Assembly (NCBI GenBank): GCA_025998675.1
Contig: AP024673.1
Span: forward strand, 1,825,221 to 1,889,220
From: Fimbriimonadales bacterium
Lineage (GTDB): Bacteria; Armatimonadota; Fimbriimonadia; Fimbriimonadales; GBS-DC
Direction of reading: 5' to 3'
DNA: 64,000 nt
Under the pieces are notes generated by a model. It had not been told where the DNA came from, did no database searches, and saw only the letters and a list, made by a program, of their open reading frames with translations. Position numbers and translations under genes: made by a program. Below, piece by piece: positions 32,830-43,318 of the stretch (position 1 is the stretch's first letter; every line of letters starts with the position of its first letter).

Positions 32830-33936
32830 ATGTCGAAGCGACCGTCGATACAGCAAGAGTACCAGCGCCAGCTCATGCTCCGCTGGATTACGACCGTCAC
32901 CCAGTGGCTGATGAGCGTAGGCGCGATATTGTTTGTGCTGGGGTTGGTCTATCTGCTGTACGCGCTGGTGTTCGCCAATCTCGATTCGCAGAGTTTCTCG
33001 GCGCAGGATCAGGCGCGCATTCGGGACAATCTGGGGCTGGCGGGCAACGCGCTGCTGCTGGGCGCGGGCTTCATCGTGATTGGGCTGGCATGGAACTATC
33101 TGGAGGAGCCGCTGGTGGGCGTTGCGCTGCTGGTCGCCGCCGCGCTGTTCTACTGGGGGCTGCCGTTTCTGTTCGGGCAGTTCGGCGCGCTGCCGACGCC
33201 GGGCGGGCTGGGCGATTTTGCGCTCTCGCGTGTGCGCAACGCCGCGTGGGTGCTGTTCCCGCCGGGGCTGGTGCTGACGGTGTTCGTGAGCCTGTCGCAC
33301 GCGATTAAGCGGCTGCGCTACGGCGCGAGCATGGATCAGTCGCTCAAACTCGGCGCGGAGGTGAGCAAGCAGCAGGTCCCGCAGCGATTTCTGGGCAAGT
33401 GCTGGCAACTGCCCTACTGCCGCGACTATGTGCGCGAACGGTGCCCGATTTATCACGCGCGGCGCACCTGCTGGCGCGAGGGCGTCGGCTGCATGTGCGA
33501 GGAGAAGAACATCGCGCTCGCGCTCAAAGATGTGCGCGTCAGCGACGACCCCGAAAAGAACGCCAAATACATCCCCCATAACACGACGCTCAGCAAGTGG
33601 GAGTTGAAGCAGCGCTGCAACGAGTGCGTGATTTACAACGAACACCAGCGCCAGAAGTACCAGCTGTTCGCGCCGCTGACGGTGGGCACGGTGCTGGGCG
33701 TCGCTTACTTTTTCCGCGCGTCGTTGCAGGCGCAGGTGCTGAACCTGCTGGGCGCGATCGACGCGGCGCTGGCGCGCTTCACGCTGATGCCCAGCGAGGC
33801 GCGCGAGGGCGTGCTGAAAGCCGCCGCGCAGACCAGCGAAGCCGCCGCGCTTGTGCTTTACATCGCGCTGGTGATTGTCGTGCTGAGCTACGCGCTGCGC
33901 ACGGTAGAGACGGTGGTGTTCAAATGGAAATGGTGA
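32830..33936 (+). CDS. Membrane protein with two-CW-type Cys-rich loop
   Basis: 368 aa, family not recognised. Four or five transmembrane helices lie in residues 25-165 and two more near 280-365. Between them a hydrophilic segment carries a dense Cys pattern: KCWQLPYCRDYVRERCPIY, TCWREGVGCMCEEKN, and KQRCNECVIYNE. The CW…C…CP.Y…CW…GC arrangement resembles the 'two-CW' motif seen next to redox or signalling domains. Metal or [Fe-S] binding is an inference. GGAG lies 5 bases before ATG 32830. The stop overlaps the biotin-carrier-like gene, so the two are coupled. Confidence 0.7.
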   Translation: MSKRPSIQQEYQRQLMLRWITTVTQWLMSVGAILFVLGLVYLLYALVFANLDSQSFSAQDQARIRDNLGLAGNALLLGAGFIVIGLAWNYLEEPLVGVALLVAAALFYWGLPFLFGQFGALPTPGGLGDFALSRVRNAAWVLFPPGLVLTVFVSLSHAIKRLRYGASMDQSLKLGAEVSKQQVPQRFLGKCWQLPYCRDYVRERCPIYHARRTCWREGVGCMCEEKNIALALKDVRVSDDPEKNAKYIPHNTTLSKWELKQRCNECVIYNEHQRQKYQLFAPLTVGTVLGVAYFFRASLQAQVLNLLGAIDAALARFTLMPSEAREGVLKAAAQTSEAAALVLYIALVIVVLSYALRTVETVVFKWKW

Positions 33937-34391
33937 ACGAGGTACTGGAGCAGGTGGAGCAGCTGGCGCAGCTGATGGCGCAGCACGGGGCGACCCGTCT
34001 GGAGCTGGGCGACGCGACGCAACGGATTACGCTGGCGCGCGCCTCTGGGGCGGGCGCGCCGCCTGCCCACGACGAGGCGATGCCCCCGCTCTTTCTGAGC
34101 GACTACGCGGCGTCCGAGGCGGCGCCCGACGCGGAGCCAGAGAGCCTGTGGCAGCCGCCCGCGCTGCTGGAGGTGCGCTCCGAGTTCGTGGGCTACTGCA
34201 CGCTCGCGCCCCTGCACATCGGCGCGGCGGTCGAACGCGGGCAGGCGCTGGCGACCGTCGAGGTGCTGGGCATCCCCAACGAAGTGGTTGCGCCGCTGCC
34301 CGCCGTGCTGGAAGGCTGGGCGGTCGAATCGGGTCAGCCCGTGCAGTACGGGCAGCCCATCGCCTACCTGCGCCCCCTGAGCGAGGAGTAG
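33930..34391 (+). CDS. Biotin-carrier-like protein without the biotinylated lysine
   Basis: About 153 aa (155 from ATG 33924). The layout is that of acetyl-CoA carboxylase biotin carboxyl carrier protein: an N-terminal helix (VEQLAQLMAQHGATRLELGD), an acidic/Pro linker, and a biotinyl/lipoyl hammerhead (FVGYCTLAPLHIGAAVERGQALATVE … ESGQPVQYGQPIAYLRPL). Where AccB has EAMKMMNE, this protein has EVLGIPNE, so Gly replaces the target Lys. It cannot be biotinylated at the usual place. Plant and cyanobacterial BADC-type proteins with this loss regulate acetyl-CoA carboxylase; a similar role here is inference. Confidence 0.8.
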   Translation: MVNEVLEQVEQLAQLMAQHGATRLELGDATQRITLARASGAGAPPAHDEAMPPLFLSDYAASEAAPDAEPESLWQPPALLEVRSEFVGYCTLAPLHIGAAVERGQALATVEVLGIPNEVVAPLPAVLEGWAVESGQPVQYGQPIAYLRPLSEE

Positions 34392-34543
34392 CAGACGGGG
34401 GTATTCCATCGAATCGGCGTGCTTCGGCGCAGCAAATTGTTCGCCTCCCACGAGGAGAGCATACCTCACGGGAGTAGCTCGTGCAGTGCAGTTTCGTTGA
34501 CTATCAGGCTGGGAGTTTAATACGACCTCAACAACGCATTCCC

Positions 34544-34564
34544 CTGCAAAAACCGCCCCACCGC
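34544..34564. repeat. 21-bp fragment identical to the RHS core
   Basis: The bases 34544-34564 are identical to part of the RHS core that encodes VGRFLQ (seen at about 35905-35930). They directly follow the toxin homology, marking a recombination junction. Confidence 0.7.
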
Positions 34565-34793
34565 CTATGTCCAGCACAATCACCCGACGCGCTCCATCAT
34601 CCACCTCGTAGACAATCCGATACCTGCCTATCCGCAACCGCCACCCTTCACGCCCACGCAACTTGAGACAGCCCGCAGAACGCGGCTCCACTGCCAACCC
34701 CTGTAACGCCTCCCTGACACGTGGATAAACTTCCGCAGGCAGCTTCTCTAATTGCTTCACCGCACGCGGCAGGATTTCTACCTTATAATTCAC
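34563..34793 (-). pseudogene. RelE/ParE-type toxin, 3' end replaced
   Basis: From GTG 34793 the frame reads NYKVEILPRAVKQLEKLPAE … LRGREGWRLRIGRYRIVYEVDD … VIVLDIG, a clear RelE/ParE-superfamily mRNA interferase or gyrase toxin. The normal tail after VIVLDIG (usually xxRxxVY) is absent: at 34564 homology ends at the 21-bp RHS fragment and the frame runs on antisense through the biotin-carrier gene. It overlaps the antitoxin stop by GTGA. Probably inactive. Confidence 0.75.
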
Positions 34794-35437: not shown

Positions 35438-36166
35438 TTACAAAAAATACTTAGGTGGGGCTTCCAAAATCGGTATGCCATTAGGATACAAAGGGAATGG
35501 CAGTTTCTCTGGAGCAGGTGCTAATATTTTCTTCAAACCCGCCGCGCAACTCCCTGCTAAGCCTGTGATAGCGCCTTCCACTGCCCCTCCTACCATGTCG
35601 TCGACAAGTTGATTGTTGTCCCAGCTTCCTAAATCATTGTCCCAGTAATAAGAGTTTGCTGCTACTGCCGCGCCTCCCAAAGCGCCATACGCTATGCTAC
35701 CAGCAACCATAATAGGTCCACTTGCAGGTAATGTAACTGTAGCTAGAACTATAAAGCCAACAGCTATTACAGCGTTGGTGAGATGTTTTCCCCAATTTAT
35801 TTTCATCCCACTCGGATCCACGGCGTTCACGGGGTCGTTCACGCAGTACGCATACGCATTCAGCGTCAGCGGGGCATAGATAGACCCCAGCCACGGATCC
35901 TGCTGCAAAAACCGCCCCACCGCAGGGTCGTACCAGCGCACGCCCACCTTCTGCAACCCGCCCGTGAGCGCCTCGTTCCGATACCCCCACGCCCCGTTCC
36001 AGTCGTAGGTCGCCCGCACGCCGCTGACTGTGTCGCCGAATGCATCGGTGACGGGCGCAGGCAGGTACGCGCCGCTGGATGTGGACTTCGCCGCCAGATC
36101 CCCACGCCAGTTCCAGTGCATATACTCCGTTCCCGCGCTGCTGACCTGCTGGTACATCGCGCCCCG
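35438..36166 (-). CDS. Displaced RHS C-terminal cassette 3 (core end plus toxin tip)
   Basis: The frame contains about 115 aa of RHS core almost identical to the main gene ([20 protein letters not shown] … [17 protein letters not shown] … [16 protein letters not shown]), then a unique tip of about 120 aa ([26 protein letters not shown] … [22 protein letters not shown] … PPKYFL) rich in Gly, Ala and hydrophobic residues. There is no convincing ribosome site or signal peptide, so it is probably silent until recombined with the main gene. The frame remains open to 36253. Confidence 0.75.
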
Positions 36167-36170
36167 TAGT
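35810..36170. repeat. RHS core DNA repeat, copy 3
   Basis: About 360 bases nearly identical in DNA to 38475-38862 and 39617-39998. Substrate for homologous exchange of the distal tips. Confidence 0.85.
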
Positions 36171-36281
36171 CGAATTGTACCTCCTCTTTGACTCCGTAGC
36201 GCGTCCCAGTGCGAACTGTGCACAAGCATCGGGCGTGCATCCCACATATCCACAAAGTCTGCCCTTCGCGTGTCCAGACTG

Positions 36282-38112: not shown

Positions 38113-38901
38113 TCACCACATCAATCTATTGAACAACCACGGATAAGATTCATAAGCGGCATCTCCAAGATCGTTGATACTAATGTCAGTTCCCATTAAC
38201 CAGCTGGCAAAATATGCTATAATAGGTTTGCCCGTCTTCGTCTCCACGATTGTATCAGCTGCTCGCCCCACGCCATACGAAGCAATGGCACATACAGTGA
38301 CTAATGTACTCCCGACAACAAATCTTCGAACAGTAGGTGGGTACTTCGGGAATCCGCGAACAGGTGGTTTCTCGTAATCCTTTGGCATCCACCTGAAGTC
38401 ACCAGGCTCAGTTCCCCAAGGCATGGAAGGATTTTCAATGACCCACCTCATACCAGGCGTTAGCGGTTGCTTCCCACTCGGATCCGCCGCATTCACGGGG
38501 TCATTCACGCAGTACGCATACGCATTCAGCGTCAGCGGGGCATAAATAGACCCCAGCCACGGATCCTGCTGCAAAAACCGACCCACTGCAGGGTCGTACC
38601 AGCGCACGCACACCTTCTGCAACCCGCCTGTGAGCGCCTCGTTCCGATAGCCCCACGCCCCGTTCCAGTCGTAGGTCGCCCGCACGCCGCTAACGGTATC
38701 ACCAAACGCATCCGTGACGGGCGCAGGCAGATACGCGCCACTGGGAATGGACTTTGCGGCTAAGTCGCCGCGCACACTCCAGTGTGTATATTCGGTTCCC
38801 GCGCTGCTGACCTGCTGGTACATCGCTGCCCCGTAGTCGTAGTATACCCAGTTGCCGTTCACTTGTTTGGCGTGCCTCCTAAACTTTTGTCGTGCGCACA
38901 T
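38113..38901 (-). CDS. Displaced RHS C-terminal cassette 1
   Basis: 262 aa open frame. Residues about 15-145 repeat the RHS core ([24 protein letters not shown] … [14 protein letters not shown] … [13 protein letters not shown]). The tip of about 117 aa is unique ([30 protein letters not shown] … [22 protein letters not shown] … [14 protein letters not shown]). Core-region base changes against the main copy show it has been separate for some time (for example VCVRWYDP for VGVRWYDP). No signal peptide or ribosome site; likely a silent store. Confidence 0.75.
38475..38862. repeat. RHS core DNA repeat, copy 1
   Basis: About 390 bases closely matching 39617-39998 and 35810-36170; the match ends abruptly at the tip on one side and just upstream of the NGNWVYY codons on the other. 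Confidence 0.85.
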
Positions 38902-39257: not shown

Positions 39258-42200
39258 TTACACTGGAAAGCGTGGCGGGGATATCGGTCCAAAAGAACGC
39301 AGGAGAATATCCAACACTTCAAATAACGCCCTATGTGGATTATCCACTATCTGCTCAACCCGACACTGCCAAGTGAGTTCCCCAAGTGCACTCCCGATAG
39401 CACCTCCTGTGACTGCTCCCAGAAATCCTCCTACGAACCCTCCTACAGCGGCGCCAGAGACTGTGCCAACTATCGGCAGTGTGATTGTGCCACCTGCAGC
39501 GCCAGCTGCGCTACCGATAGCCGCTCCAGCCGCGCCACCTACAAATCCGCCCCCTGCTCCCCAGGCCCCAACATATCCTCGATGGATAACCTCCTTCCAG
39601 TTTACCCTCATTCCATCAGAATCCACAGCGTTCACGGGGTCGTTCACGCAGTACGCATACGCATTCAGCGTCAGCGGGGCATAGATAGACCCCAGCCACG
39701 GATCCTGCTGCAAAAACCGCCCGACCGCAGGGTCGTACCAGCGCACGCCCACCTTCTGCAACCCGCCCGTGAGCGCCTCGTTCCGATACCCCCACGCCCC
39801 GTTCCAGTCGTAGGTCGCCCGCACGCCGCTGACCGTGTCGCCGAATGCATCCGTGACGGGCGCAGGCAGGTACGCGCCGCTGGAGGTGGACTTCGCCGCC
39901 AGATCCCCACGCCAGTTCCAGTGCATATACTCCGTTCCTGCGCTGCTGATCTGCTGGTACATCGCTGCCCCGTAGCCGTAGTATACCCAGTTGCCGTTAG
40001 CGCGCTCGGCAATCAGCGCGTCGCCTGAATACAGGTACGCGATTCCTTGATCCCCTTCTTGATCCCCGCGCACTGCACGCACGCGACGCCCCAGTCCATC
40101 ATATTTGTACACCCAGCCCACATCATCATGATTCTGCAAACTCACAAGATTTCCTTCCGCATCATAGCCCAGCAACCAGGTCTCCCCGTTCACCCGACGC
40201 ACAGTCACATTCCCGTCAAGGTCGTGCGCCCACATCTGACCGTTCAAGGATACGAGCTGGTTCGCCTCGTTATACACCATCACATCTGTGAAGGTCTGCC
40301 CGTTGGCTGTGCGGGTGCGCGTCAGGCGGTTGCCCACCTTATCATACCCGTACTCTATTGTGTAGGCGTTCGCGCCTGTGCGGACCTCGCGCACCAGTTG
40401 TCCCTGATGGTCGTAGGTATAGGTCGTGGTCGACGCCAGCTGCAACGCCCCCTGCGCCGAAGGGAGATACTCCTGCTTCGTCTCGATGCGTCCAAGAGCG
40501 TCGTAAATAAGCGTCTCTTTGCGGAAGGGCGTAGAACCAGCGCGCCACTCGATTTCCTGCACACGATCGGGGAACTGCCCGTCGTATCGGTACACGGTTT
40601 CCGTGTTGTTGGCGTATCGGATGCGCTGCAGGCGTCCTGTGGTCGCCTCGTAAATATAGGTCACTTCGGGTTGCTCGGAGTTGTCAGCGAACACATACTC
40701 CAGTTCGCCTGCAAGCGAGTAGTGATACCGATACTGCTTCAGGGTCTGTTGCCCATCTTCGAGAGTGAGTTCTGTAAGTCGCCCGCGATTCCAGTGGTAT
40801 TCCACAGTCCCTTCGGGCGTGTGCACGCGTTGTAGCTCGCCCGTGTTCTCGTGGTATTCCCACACGGTGTTGCGCGACGGCTGTCCTACTGGCTCCTCGT
40901 GCATCGTCAGAGGTTTCCCCTCAGGTGTGTAAGTGTATCTCACGACTTTATCAAGCGTCTGCTTCTGGCGCAGTCGTCCCCAGCTGTCGTACTTGTAGGT
41001 GATGGTCTGCTCCCGTGCGTTGGTCGCCTGAAGCACCCAGCCCAACGCATTCCGCTGCACGCTCCCACCCTGATTGAGGGCGTTCTGCACCTGCTGCATG
41101 TGTCCGTAGGCGTCGTAGAGATATTTCTGCGTGCGATGCCCTTCGGCGTCCCACGCCTCTTGCAGCAGTCCGCGCGCCACATCCCACACATAGGTGGTAA
41201 TCGCCTCAACGCCCGCGCCCTCTCCTGCCAGTTCACGGACCTGCTCAAGGTCGCCAAAGGCGTTGTAGGTGTAAAACAGGCGATACTTATCTGGAGGCGT
41301 CAGCGCATCGCGCACGCTGCGCAGGCGGTTAAGCGCGGTGTACTCCAGTTCCACTGCGTTGCCTGCAGGGTCTTCCACACGGGTAAGATTGCCTCGCTCA
41401 TCCCAGCAGAAGTGGTACACACTCCCCGCAGGCGATTGCACGTTCTGGAGCTGGTAGAGGGTGTTCCAGCCCAGTTGTGTTGCGCGTCCCAGCGGGTCTA
41501 TGGTGCGGTTGAGCCGTCCCAGCGCGTCGTATTCGTAAGTCAGGAACCCCAGATTACCATCCATGTCTTGACTGATTGCGTAATGGACGCGCCGAACGGT
41601 CGCCCCCAGCGAGCTGGCGCATTCGCCGCTGGTGTCGATCACAGGACACGCGCGGATGGGAGTCGCGCATACCACCGCACGCAGATTCCCTGCACCCGGT
41701 CCGCCAGAACCTGGAGGTCCCAGCACGCGGTAGCCTGTACACTCAAAGGACTGGTAGCTTGTGGCGTCGTATTCGTACACCACTGCTGCGCCGTCACGAT
41801 CTTCAACCTGTGTCAGCACATAGCGCGGCTCATTTGGTACGCCGAAGTCTGCGTAGCTGAACTTGTAGGCGTGCTCGCGCGGGTCAACCTCACCCTCGTA
41901 CACAAGAGGAGGAAAGACAATCCGCTCAAGACGCGGGATGTTATCGCCAGGTTCGGCGAGTCCGGCGGGCAGGTATCTGAACCTCCAGATTTGTTCGGGG
42001 ACATCGGGCGCGCCCTCCACACGCACCGACGCCAGCTTGCCCTGCCATACGCTATGCGGCGCATCGGTCCCATAGTAATCGAACCGCAACGCCCGCCCCG
42101 TCGTATCGACCACACGCGCCAACTGCCCACTGGCAGGGTTATACTCCAGAGACACTCCCTGGTTATGCAAGTCGCGAATTGCGATGAGCCGCCCCGAAAG

Positions 42201-43318
42201 ATTGAACACCCAGCGTATCTGCGAAGCGCGAATGAGATGATATTCGTTCTCTACACGAACCAGTCGGTCATATACGCCTTTCATCGCGGTATAGCTGCCG
42301 TCGGGCTGCTCGGCGAAGGCTAACACGCGCCCATCCGGCTCCTCAAGGATTAATCCTTCCGCAAACGGTATCAGCCGCGCTTCAAAAGTATGACGCCAGC
42401 CAACGCCCAGCGCGCCTACGCGCGTGTCCAGCGCGTTATAAGTCAGCCCAAATGCGATTCCAGACTGCCCGCCCCAGCCCGTAAGCCCGAAACCGAGGGT
42501 CAGATTACCGTTAGCGGGATTAACCACGCCGTAAGGCACTGGAAAGCTTCCCTGCCAGGCGAATGGCGCGCCAAAGGTGTTGGGTGCAGGCGACGTCGCC
42601 GCCACATCGGTGCGACTGATGGTGAGCCAGCTCTCGCCTGCAGGCGCAATCACCTGAACAGCGTAGGCGTTCGGCGTCGGAACCTGTACAGAGACCACTT
42701 GGAGAGGATTGCCGTTGAAGGAGGCAGCAGTGGTGTAGTGCGCGCCTGTACTCATGTCGCGCAGATTAATCTGTACCGTGCCCGTGAAGGCGCCCGCATA
42801 ATCGCCCAGCTGCACTGCGAACTGGAGTGTGTACCAGCCGCCGGGCGCGGGAAAGTTGCCCCACGAAGCGTCGGAACTCTGCCCCCAGCTGAACAACACA
42901 ATCATCAGGTCTGCGTCATCGACGATGCCGTCGCCGTTGAGGTCGGCGTCGGGATTATTGCCGCCCATCGCGAACTGCACGGTCAACAAATCGGAGTCGT
43001 CCACGATACCGTCGCGCGTGGCGTCGCCATTCGTGAGGGTAAGCGTGGGAATGTCAGGCGGACAGGGTGCGTTCAGATTGCTGAGAAAATCGAAGGTGCG
43101 AGTGCGGTTGGCAGAGTGAACAGCCATAATTAAACTGTTAGCACTATTTACCCCCCCCCCCACCGCTCAGGGGTTGCGTTGGCTACGGCAGCGGGCATCG
43201 CCACAGACGGCGCAATCATCGCTGCACCCAGCATAAGCGCGACTCCTTTGCCAATCCAGCCCTGCGCCAGCGTTCGGCGCACACGCTTCAGACTCCAACC
43301 CTTCCGAATACCCAACAT
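39258..43318 (-). CDS. RHS/YD-repeat polymorphic toxin, split by a poly-G frameshift
   Basis: In the reading frame of the body, 1301 aa end at 39258. From the N-terminus: a dockerin-like pair ([42 protein letters not shown]), a beta domain, more than 20 RHS/YD repeats ([34 protein letters not shown]), the core end [17 protein letters not shown] … [10 protein letters not shown], and a 117-aa Gly-zipper tip ending [11 protein letters not shown]. Upstream, ATG 43318 (after GGAGG) encodes a signal peptide [20 protein letters not shown] … [15 protein letters not shown] that runs into stop after a run of 11 G; 12 G would fuse it to the body (1353 aa). Secreted or surface toxin. An internal ATG at 43127 would lack a signal. 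Confidence 0.85.
39617..39998. repeat. RHS core DNA repeat, master copy
   Basis: Distal RHS core of the full-length gene; its near-identical copies at 35810-36170 and 38475-38862 carry other tips. Confidence 0.85.
43151..43161. repeat. Poly-G tract (11 G on the coding strand) inside the RHS gene
   Basis: Eleven consecutive C on the plus strand. It separates the signal-peptide frame (…TPERWGGG-stop) from the body frame ([10 protein letters not shown]). Homopolymer G tracts of 8-14 are classical slipped-strand phase-variation sites, and are also error-prone in sequencing. Confidence 0.9.

Follow-up and report, generated by a model that had tools for sequence, protein, structure and literature searches.

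Within the 64,000-nucleotide stretch of Fimbriimonadales DNA that we analysed (here called the window), two overlapping genes lie in tandem on the forward strand. The first encodes a Cys-rich membrane protein (P0002) and the second, accB2, a lysine-less paralogue of BCCP (AccB), the biotin-carrying subunit of acetyl-CoA carboxylase (ACC) (Table 1). The same 13-bp overlap is found in most of the genus and family, and this constancy of start and overlap rules out a wrong frame or start for accB2. Two further features were recorded on the opposite strand downstream: a RelE/ParE-like toxin frame and a group of RHS genes, whose products share a common 38-letter core and differ in their tips.

Table 1. 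Features of the accB2 region (positions in the window, unless given as residues).
Feature	Position	Strand	Remarks
Cys-rich polytopic membrane protein P0002, 368 aa	32830..33936	+	overlaps accB2 by 13 bp
Overlap of membrane-protein gene 3' end and accB2 start	33924..33936	+	translational-coupling geometry
accB2, lysine-less BCCP paralogue, 155 aa	33924..34391	+	ATG start; TIGR00531, Pfam, AF2
EVLGIPNE, degenerate biotinylation site	34260..34283	+	Gly116 codon GGC at 34269-34271 replaces Lys
accB2 product: N-terminal helix and two strands	residues 2-38
accB2 product: disordered linker	residues about 40-80
accB2 product: hammerhead with shortened thumb	residues 82-151
RelE/ParE-like toxin frame (MNYKVEILPRAVKQLEKLPAEVYPRVREAL...)	34530-34793	-	convergent with accB2; sequence inspection only
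One long RHS/YD-repeat protein and two orphan RHS C-terminal modules	35438-36253, 38113-38901, 39258-43163	-

The accB2 product matches positions 3-153 of the 156 in the BCCP model TIGR00531 (E 4.7e-9), with a score of 36.9 bits that falls below the curated cut-off of 115.2 bits. Its Pfam Biotin_lipoyl match lies just over the cut-off, and a weak match to HlyD_3 was also obtained. A family profile (A1) aligned with E. coli BCCP (4hr7_B) over positions 3-133, the N-terminal domain included, with an E value of 5.2e-21. The AF2 model, computed from a 41-row alignment drawn from the window and related loci, begins with a helix and two strands, followed by a linker of low confidence and a hammerhead predicted with a pLDDT of 97-98; among PDB structures it is closest to the biotinyl domain of E. 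coli BCCP (1bdo). AccB2 thus has both the hammerhead and the AccB-type N-terminal domain of the BCCP superfamily, and it shares with E. coli AccB (1bdo, 4hr7) the domain order, the fold, the V-E-Y/F-G-Q-P C-terminal strand and, in most families, the gene position ahead of accC. However, it lacks the biotinylatable Lys in E-X-M-K-M/L that marks a catalytic AccB: the EAMKM motif is lost, and the site reads VEVLGIPNEV, with Gly116 where EAMK has its lysine. No lysine occurs anywhere in the protein, or in seven close relatives, so that attachment of biotin or lipoate through lysine is impossible. The AccB-type thumb insert is also shortened, AccB2 having GYCTLAPLHIGAAVERG where the canonical AccB of the same genome (AccB1) has GMFYRGPSPSEPPYVEEG; other family members are similarly shorter.

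This canonical copy is encoded elsewhere in the source genome (2.99 Mb, one contig), at C1:2343954-2344304, next to a homoserine-dehydrogenase-like gene; its site (EAMKVFNE) and thumb are intact, which rules out accB2 as the sole accB of the genome. AccC is encoded at 1102014, AccA at 118244 and AccD at 119215. It is well known that E. coli-type ACC requires AccC acting on biotinylated AccB. As AccB1, AccA, AccC and AccD are all present, a full catalytic ACC exists without AccB2. The first-pass annotation of this DNA had described a Gly in place of the biotinyl lysine within a retained hammerhead domain, and had proposed a search for a second, intact accB; the open reading frame, the replaced residue and the modelled fold agree with that description, and the second gene has now been found, so that the absence of any other accB, which that annotation had named among its grounds for refutation, does not apply.

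AccB2 is well conserved in the surrounding order. BCCP-type homologues, i.e. members of the AccB2 family or canonical AccB, were found in 58 of the 61 nearest genomes. The former lysine position is Gly in all 21 aligned order members, where it forms one of only three invariant columns, and in 60/60 further order genomes; the single exception seen to this order-wide Gly is a Thr in G020. A VG and GQ..EYGQ core is also conserved across the order. Within the genus, dN/dS of accB2 is 0.06-0.31 by a simple Nei-Gojobori estimate, in which some dS values are high. Since the Gly is invariant and purifying selection acts on the gene, the loss of the lysine is no chance event, and by these measures accB2 encodes a protein that is being maintained, its Gly fixed, and not one in decay. 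In two reduced genomes of the same order (G054 and G055, 1.5 Mb) no AccB1, AccB2 or Cys-rich membrane protein was found, and these bacteria possibly depend on outside fatty acids.

Across the little-studied phylum Armatimonadota, 235 of 237 genomes were matched in a profile search, a count that includes canonical AccB. In the 29 genomes where both copies were read, the AccB1 site is always K, whereas that of AccB2 is G (16), K (7), R (3), T (2) or H (1). Forty further matches outside the order have K (25), G (8), R (2), D (2), T (1), H (1) or S (1). The K-bearing AccB2 sequences (L188, L190, L192, L194, L199, L267-L302) often read ESMKLMND or ESMKLLND, with Ser replacing the usual Ala. In an IQ-TREE phylogeny of bacterial sequences, Armatimonadota AccB1 (clade support 100/98) and the proteins of other bacteria are split from AccB2 (branch support 94/97), with two rows as exceptions: G113, which bears K, and L131, a fragmentary outgroup sequence. 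Parsimony on the site-masked tree requires at least four K/non-K changes; their exact number and the direction of the K losses are not certain, the AccB2 branches being long and several forks weak. Judging from these alignments and the tree, AccB2 is an ancient, phylum-wide Armatimonadota paralogue of the ACC BCCP that is not biotinylatable in the source lineage, and lysine loss recurs across the phylum and is no local oddity. The K kept in many other families (mostly as ESMKLMND) suggests that the ancestral AccB2 may have been a biotinylated carrier. No K-less accB was seen outside Armatimonadota: all 76 non-Armatimonadota proteins among the best 80 matches listed carry K.

In most families accB2 is part of the series efp – 8-Cys membrane protein – accB2 – pilin-like protein – accC – nusB – folD, complete or with some members missing. 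Of 42 accB2 loci, 31 have accC no more than two genes downstream (30 by simple motif counting, plus L104 by eye), and 23 have a gene for the Cys-rich membrane protein directly upstream (simple motif counting). At 76 AccB loci of other phyla among the matches listed, accC follows in 72 and efp lies directly before in nine; neither the membrane-protein gene nor the pilin-like gene was seen at any of these loci. Because other phyla, with a K-bearing AccB, also show the efp-accB-accC order, accB2 occupies the inherited accB slot, and in the sample examined the two additional genes are specific to Armatimonadota. The small pilin-like protein between accB2 and accC (L062, L063, L067, L104, L185), found across the phylum, has weak N_methyl matches at its N-terminal helix and conserved Cys/His at its C-terminus (e.g. 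CPHPGHEKY). In the source genome accC has moved and now lies beside nusB and a phosphate-transport-ATPase-like gene. As accC no longer adjoins accB2 in the source genus, the link between AccB2 and AccC rests on relatives.

P0002 contains about five hydrophobic segments. Between its N-terminal TM helices and the C-terminal TM helix lie eight Cys (191, 197, 205, 214, 221, 223, 263 and 266), which are kept in nearly all of 25 family members across the phylum. The family has no meaningful match in Pfam, NCBIfam or PDB, and a single-sequence AF2 model (pLDDT 59) was too poor to use. Speculatively, the eight Cys hint at bound metal or an Fe-S site, through which redox state might feed in. One copy of a P0002-type protein is encoded in nearly all AccB2 genomes tested, including 14/14 genomes of family f3, where it is not adjacent to accB2. 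The membrane protein is missing from five genomes (G017, G054, G055, G157, G205) in which no AccB2 was found, and G157 may be without the contig bearing both genes. Mismatches were also found: five genomes (G169, G172, G212, G218, G223) encode the membrane protein with no accB2 detected, and one (G108) has accB2 without it. Some of these probably come from draft assemblies. The membrane protein of another locus (L104:4964-6001) has lost most of the eight-Cys region, yet a Gly-bearing accB2 and accC are adjacent to it.

The closest parallel to AccB2 is found in plants. Arabidopsis BADC1-3 are BCCP paralogues without the biotinylation lysine that exist beside active BCCP and have been proposed as non-catalytic subunits of heteromeric ACC (PMC11926652, PMC7712654). 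Whether they act as inhibitors or as an assembly 'glue' is disputed (PMC11926652, PMC7712654). AccB2 is likewise a BCCP paralogue with no biotinyl lysine that coexists with an intact BCCP, as expected of a BADC-like analogue. It differs in being bacterial, in being encoded in the accC operon of most families, in the Gly replacement and in the pairing with an 8-Cys membrane protein. Moreover, it forms a lineage-specific Armatimonadota group. The thumb has been implicated by plant work in the contact between BCCP and BADC, and it is shortened in AccB2 itself. Since AccB2 belongs, in the tree of bacterial sequences, to a group that is specific to Armatimonadota and partly K-bearing, it probably arose independently of plant BADC.

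The first-pass annotation had anticipated both an independent bacterial equivalent of BADC and its pairing with a Cys-rich membrane protein. The former now appears likely, as a phylum-level Armatimonadota paralogue in a tree of bacterial sequences; the latter holds, the upstream frame being real and overlapping and the pairing conserved across the phylum. Two statements in that annotation are unsupported or unproven: no description of BADC in cyanobacteria was found in the literature searched, and the one cyanobacterial BCCP seen (L176) has K, while down-regulation of ACC is contested even for plant BADC (PMC11926652). Our literature search, outside which most subscription papers lay, returned no report of a bacterial lysine-less BCCP; a Chloroflexus paper (PMC11077971) concerns a fused BC-BCCP with intact EAMKM. 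AccB2 resembles BADC in being a BCCP paralogue that cannot be biotinylated and that coexists with an active copy.

We propose that AccB2 is a non-catalytic scaffold or regulatory subunit of the AccC-BCCP sub-complex, tethered to the membrane via the Cys-rich protein, and give this reading a probability of roughly 0.55. It is supported by the full-length BCCP homology, the complete lack of lysine, the purifying selection, the invariant Gly, the intact AccB1 within a complete catalytic ACC, the presence of the Cys-rich protein beside accB2 or elsewhere in the genome, and the linkage to accC, the proximity of which in relatives ties AccB2 to biotin carboxylase. Under this proposal, the N-terminal domain and hammerhead of AccB2 would mix with biotinylated AccB1 and dock on AccC; a lysine-less BCCP encoded with accC could occupy the same interfaces as AccB, as plant BADC proteins do. 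The 8-Cys membrane protein could then hold the AccC-BCCP assembly at the cytoplasmic membrane, the place of fatty-acid use, or alternatively link it to a metal, Fe-S or redox signal. Binding of AccB2 to AccC and AccB1 and to the membrane protein is predicted, as is a membrane localisation of ACC; the association with biotin carboxylase is supported by gene order in relatives. Against this proposal stand the separation of accC from accB2 in the source genus, the K kept in the AccB2 of many families, the shortened thumb and the six genomes, some of them perhaps incomplete drafts, in which AccB2 and the membrane protein do not coincide.

Another reading, which we consider unlikely, follows the original BADC model: AccB2 would be a plain competitive inhibitor that fills the BCCP sites on AccC, dilutes AccB1 and throttles malonyl-CoA. 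An otherwise BCCP-like protein with the same fold and the same loss as BADC, encoded with accC in most families, could act in this way. Such an inhibitor needs its own dosage control, yet in most families accB2 shares an operon with accC, so that inhibitor and target are presumably expressed together; the model also leaves the conserved membrane partner unexplained, and an NMR study of the plant proteins argues for a stabilising role of BADC in BC-BCCP (PMC11926652). We judge an effect of AccB2 on assembly or tethering to be somewhat more likely than competitive inhibition. Next in order, and likewise improbable, is a departure from ACC altogether, in which AccB2 serves as a cytoplasmic adaptor in complex with the Cys-rich membrane protein and the accC linkage is historical. 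The membrane protein/accB2 pair does persist after accC has moved (in the source genus and most of family f1), and the membrane protein is missing in genomes without accB2; hammerheads also act as adaptors in HlyD/RND proteins, to which the weak HlyD_3 match may relate. It is difficult to reconcile this reading with the conserved N-terminal BCCP domain, or with family f3, in which accB2 stays beside accC and the membrane-protein gene lies elsewhere.

An alternative carrier, with another residue or cofactor replacing the biotinyl lysine, is very improbable. The AccB2 of some Armatimonadota retain the K and might carry biotin, but lysine is entirely missing from the accB2 product and seven close relatives, Gly offers no side chain for attaching a group, and none of the residues found at the site elsewhere (R, H, T, S, D, G) is a known carrier residue. 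Finally, a pseudogene decaying after a second accB took over can practically be discarded: the functional AccB1 makes AccB2 catalytically redundant, but the selection data (dN/dS 0.06-0.31), the frame open in the genus members read, the invariant Gly, the conserved core and the near phylum-wide retention refute it.

The proposed membrane tie of AccB2 has a functional parallel, and only that, in the plant CTI proteins, membrane proteins tied to ACC regulation by which ACC is docked at the plastid envelope (PMC7712654). CTIs bind alpha-CT, while the Armatimonadota partner has an 8-Cys domain and no meaningful family match. More tentatively, and still doubtful to us, the whole phylum may have turned the accB inherited in the efp-accB-accC-nusB-folD operon into a non-catalytic, often lysine-less subunit that a conserved 8-Cys (metal or Fe-S) protein ties to the membrane, giving a redox- or membrane-sensing control of ACC whose evolution paralleled that of plant BADC/CTI.

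Acetyl-CoA carboxylase commits carbon to fatty acids. The repeated loss of the lysine in bacteria, with both copies in one small genome and with lineages that keep K, would provide a simple test system for the dispute between inhibition and assembly, and would also point to an uncharacterised Cys-rich membrane partner of ACC. In addition, naming accB by its position next to accC mislabels the active carrier in many Armatimonadota. The retention of AccB2 beside a working AccB1 suggests that this BCCP has turned into a structural or regulatory part, as happened independently in plants.
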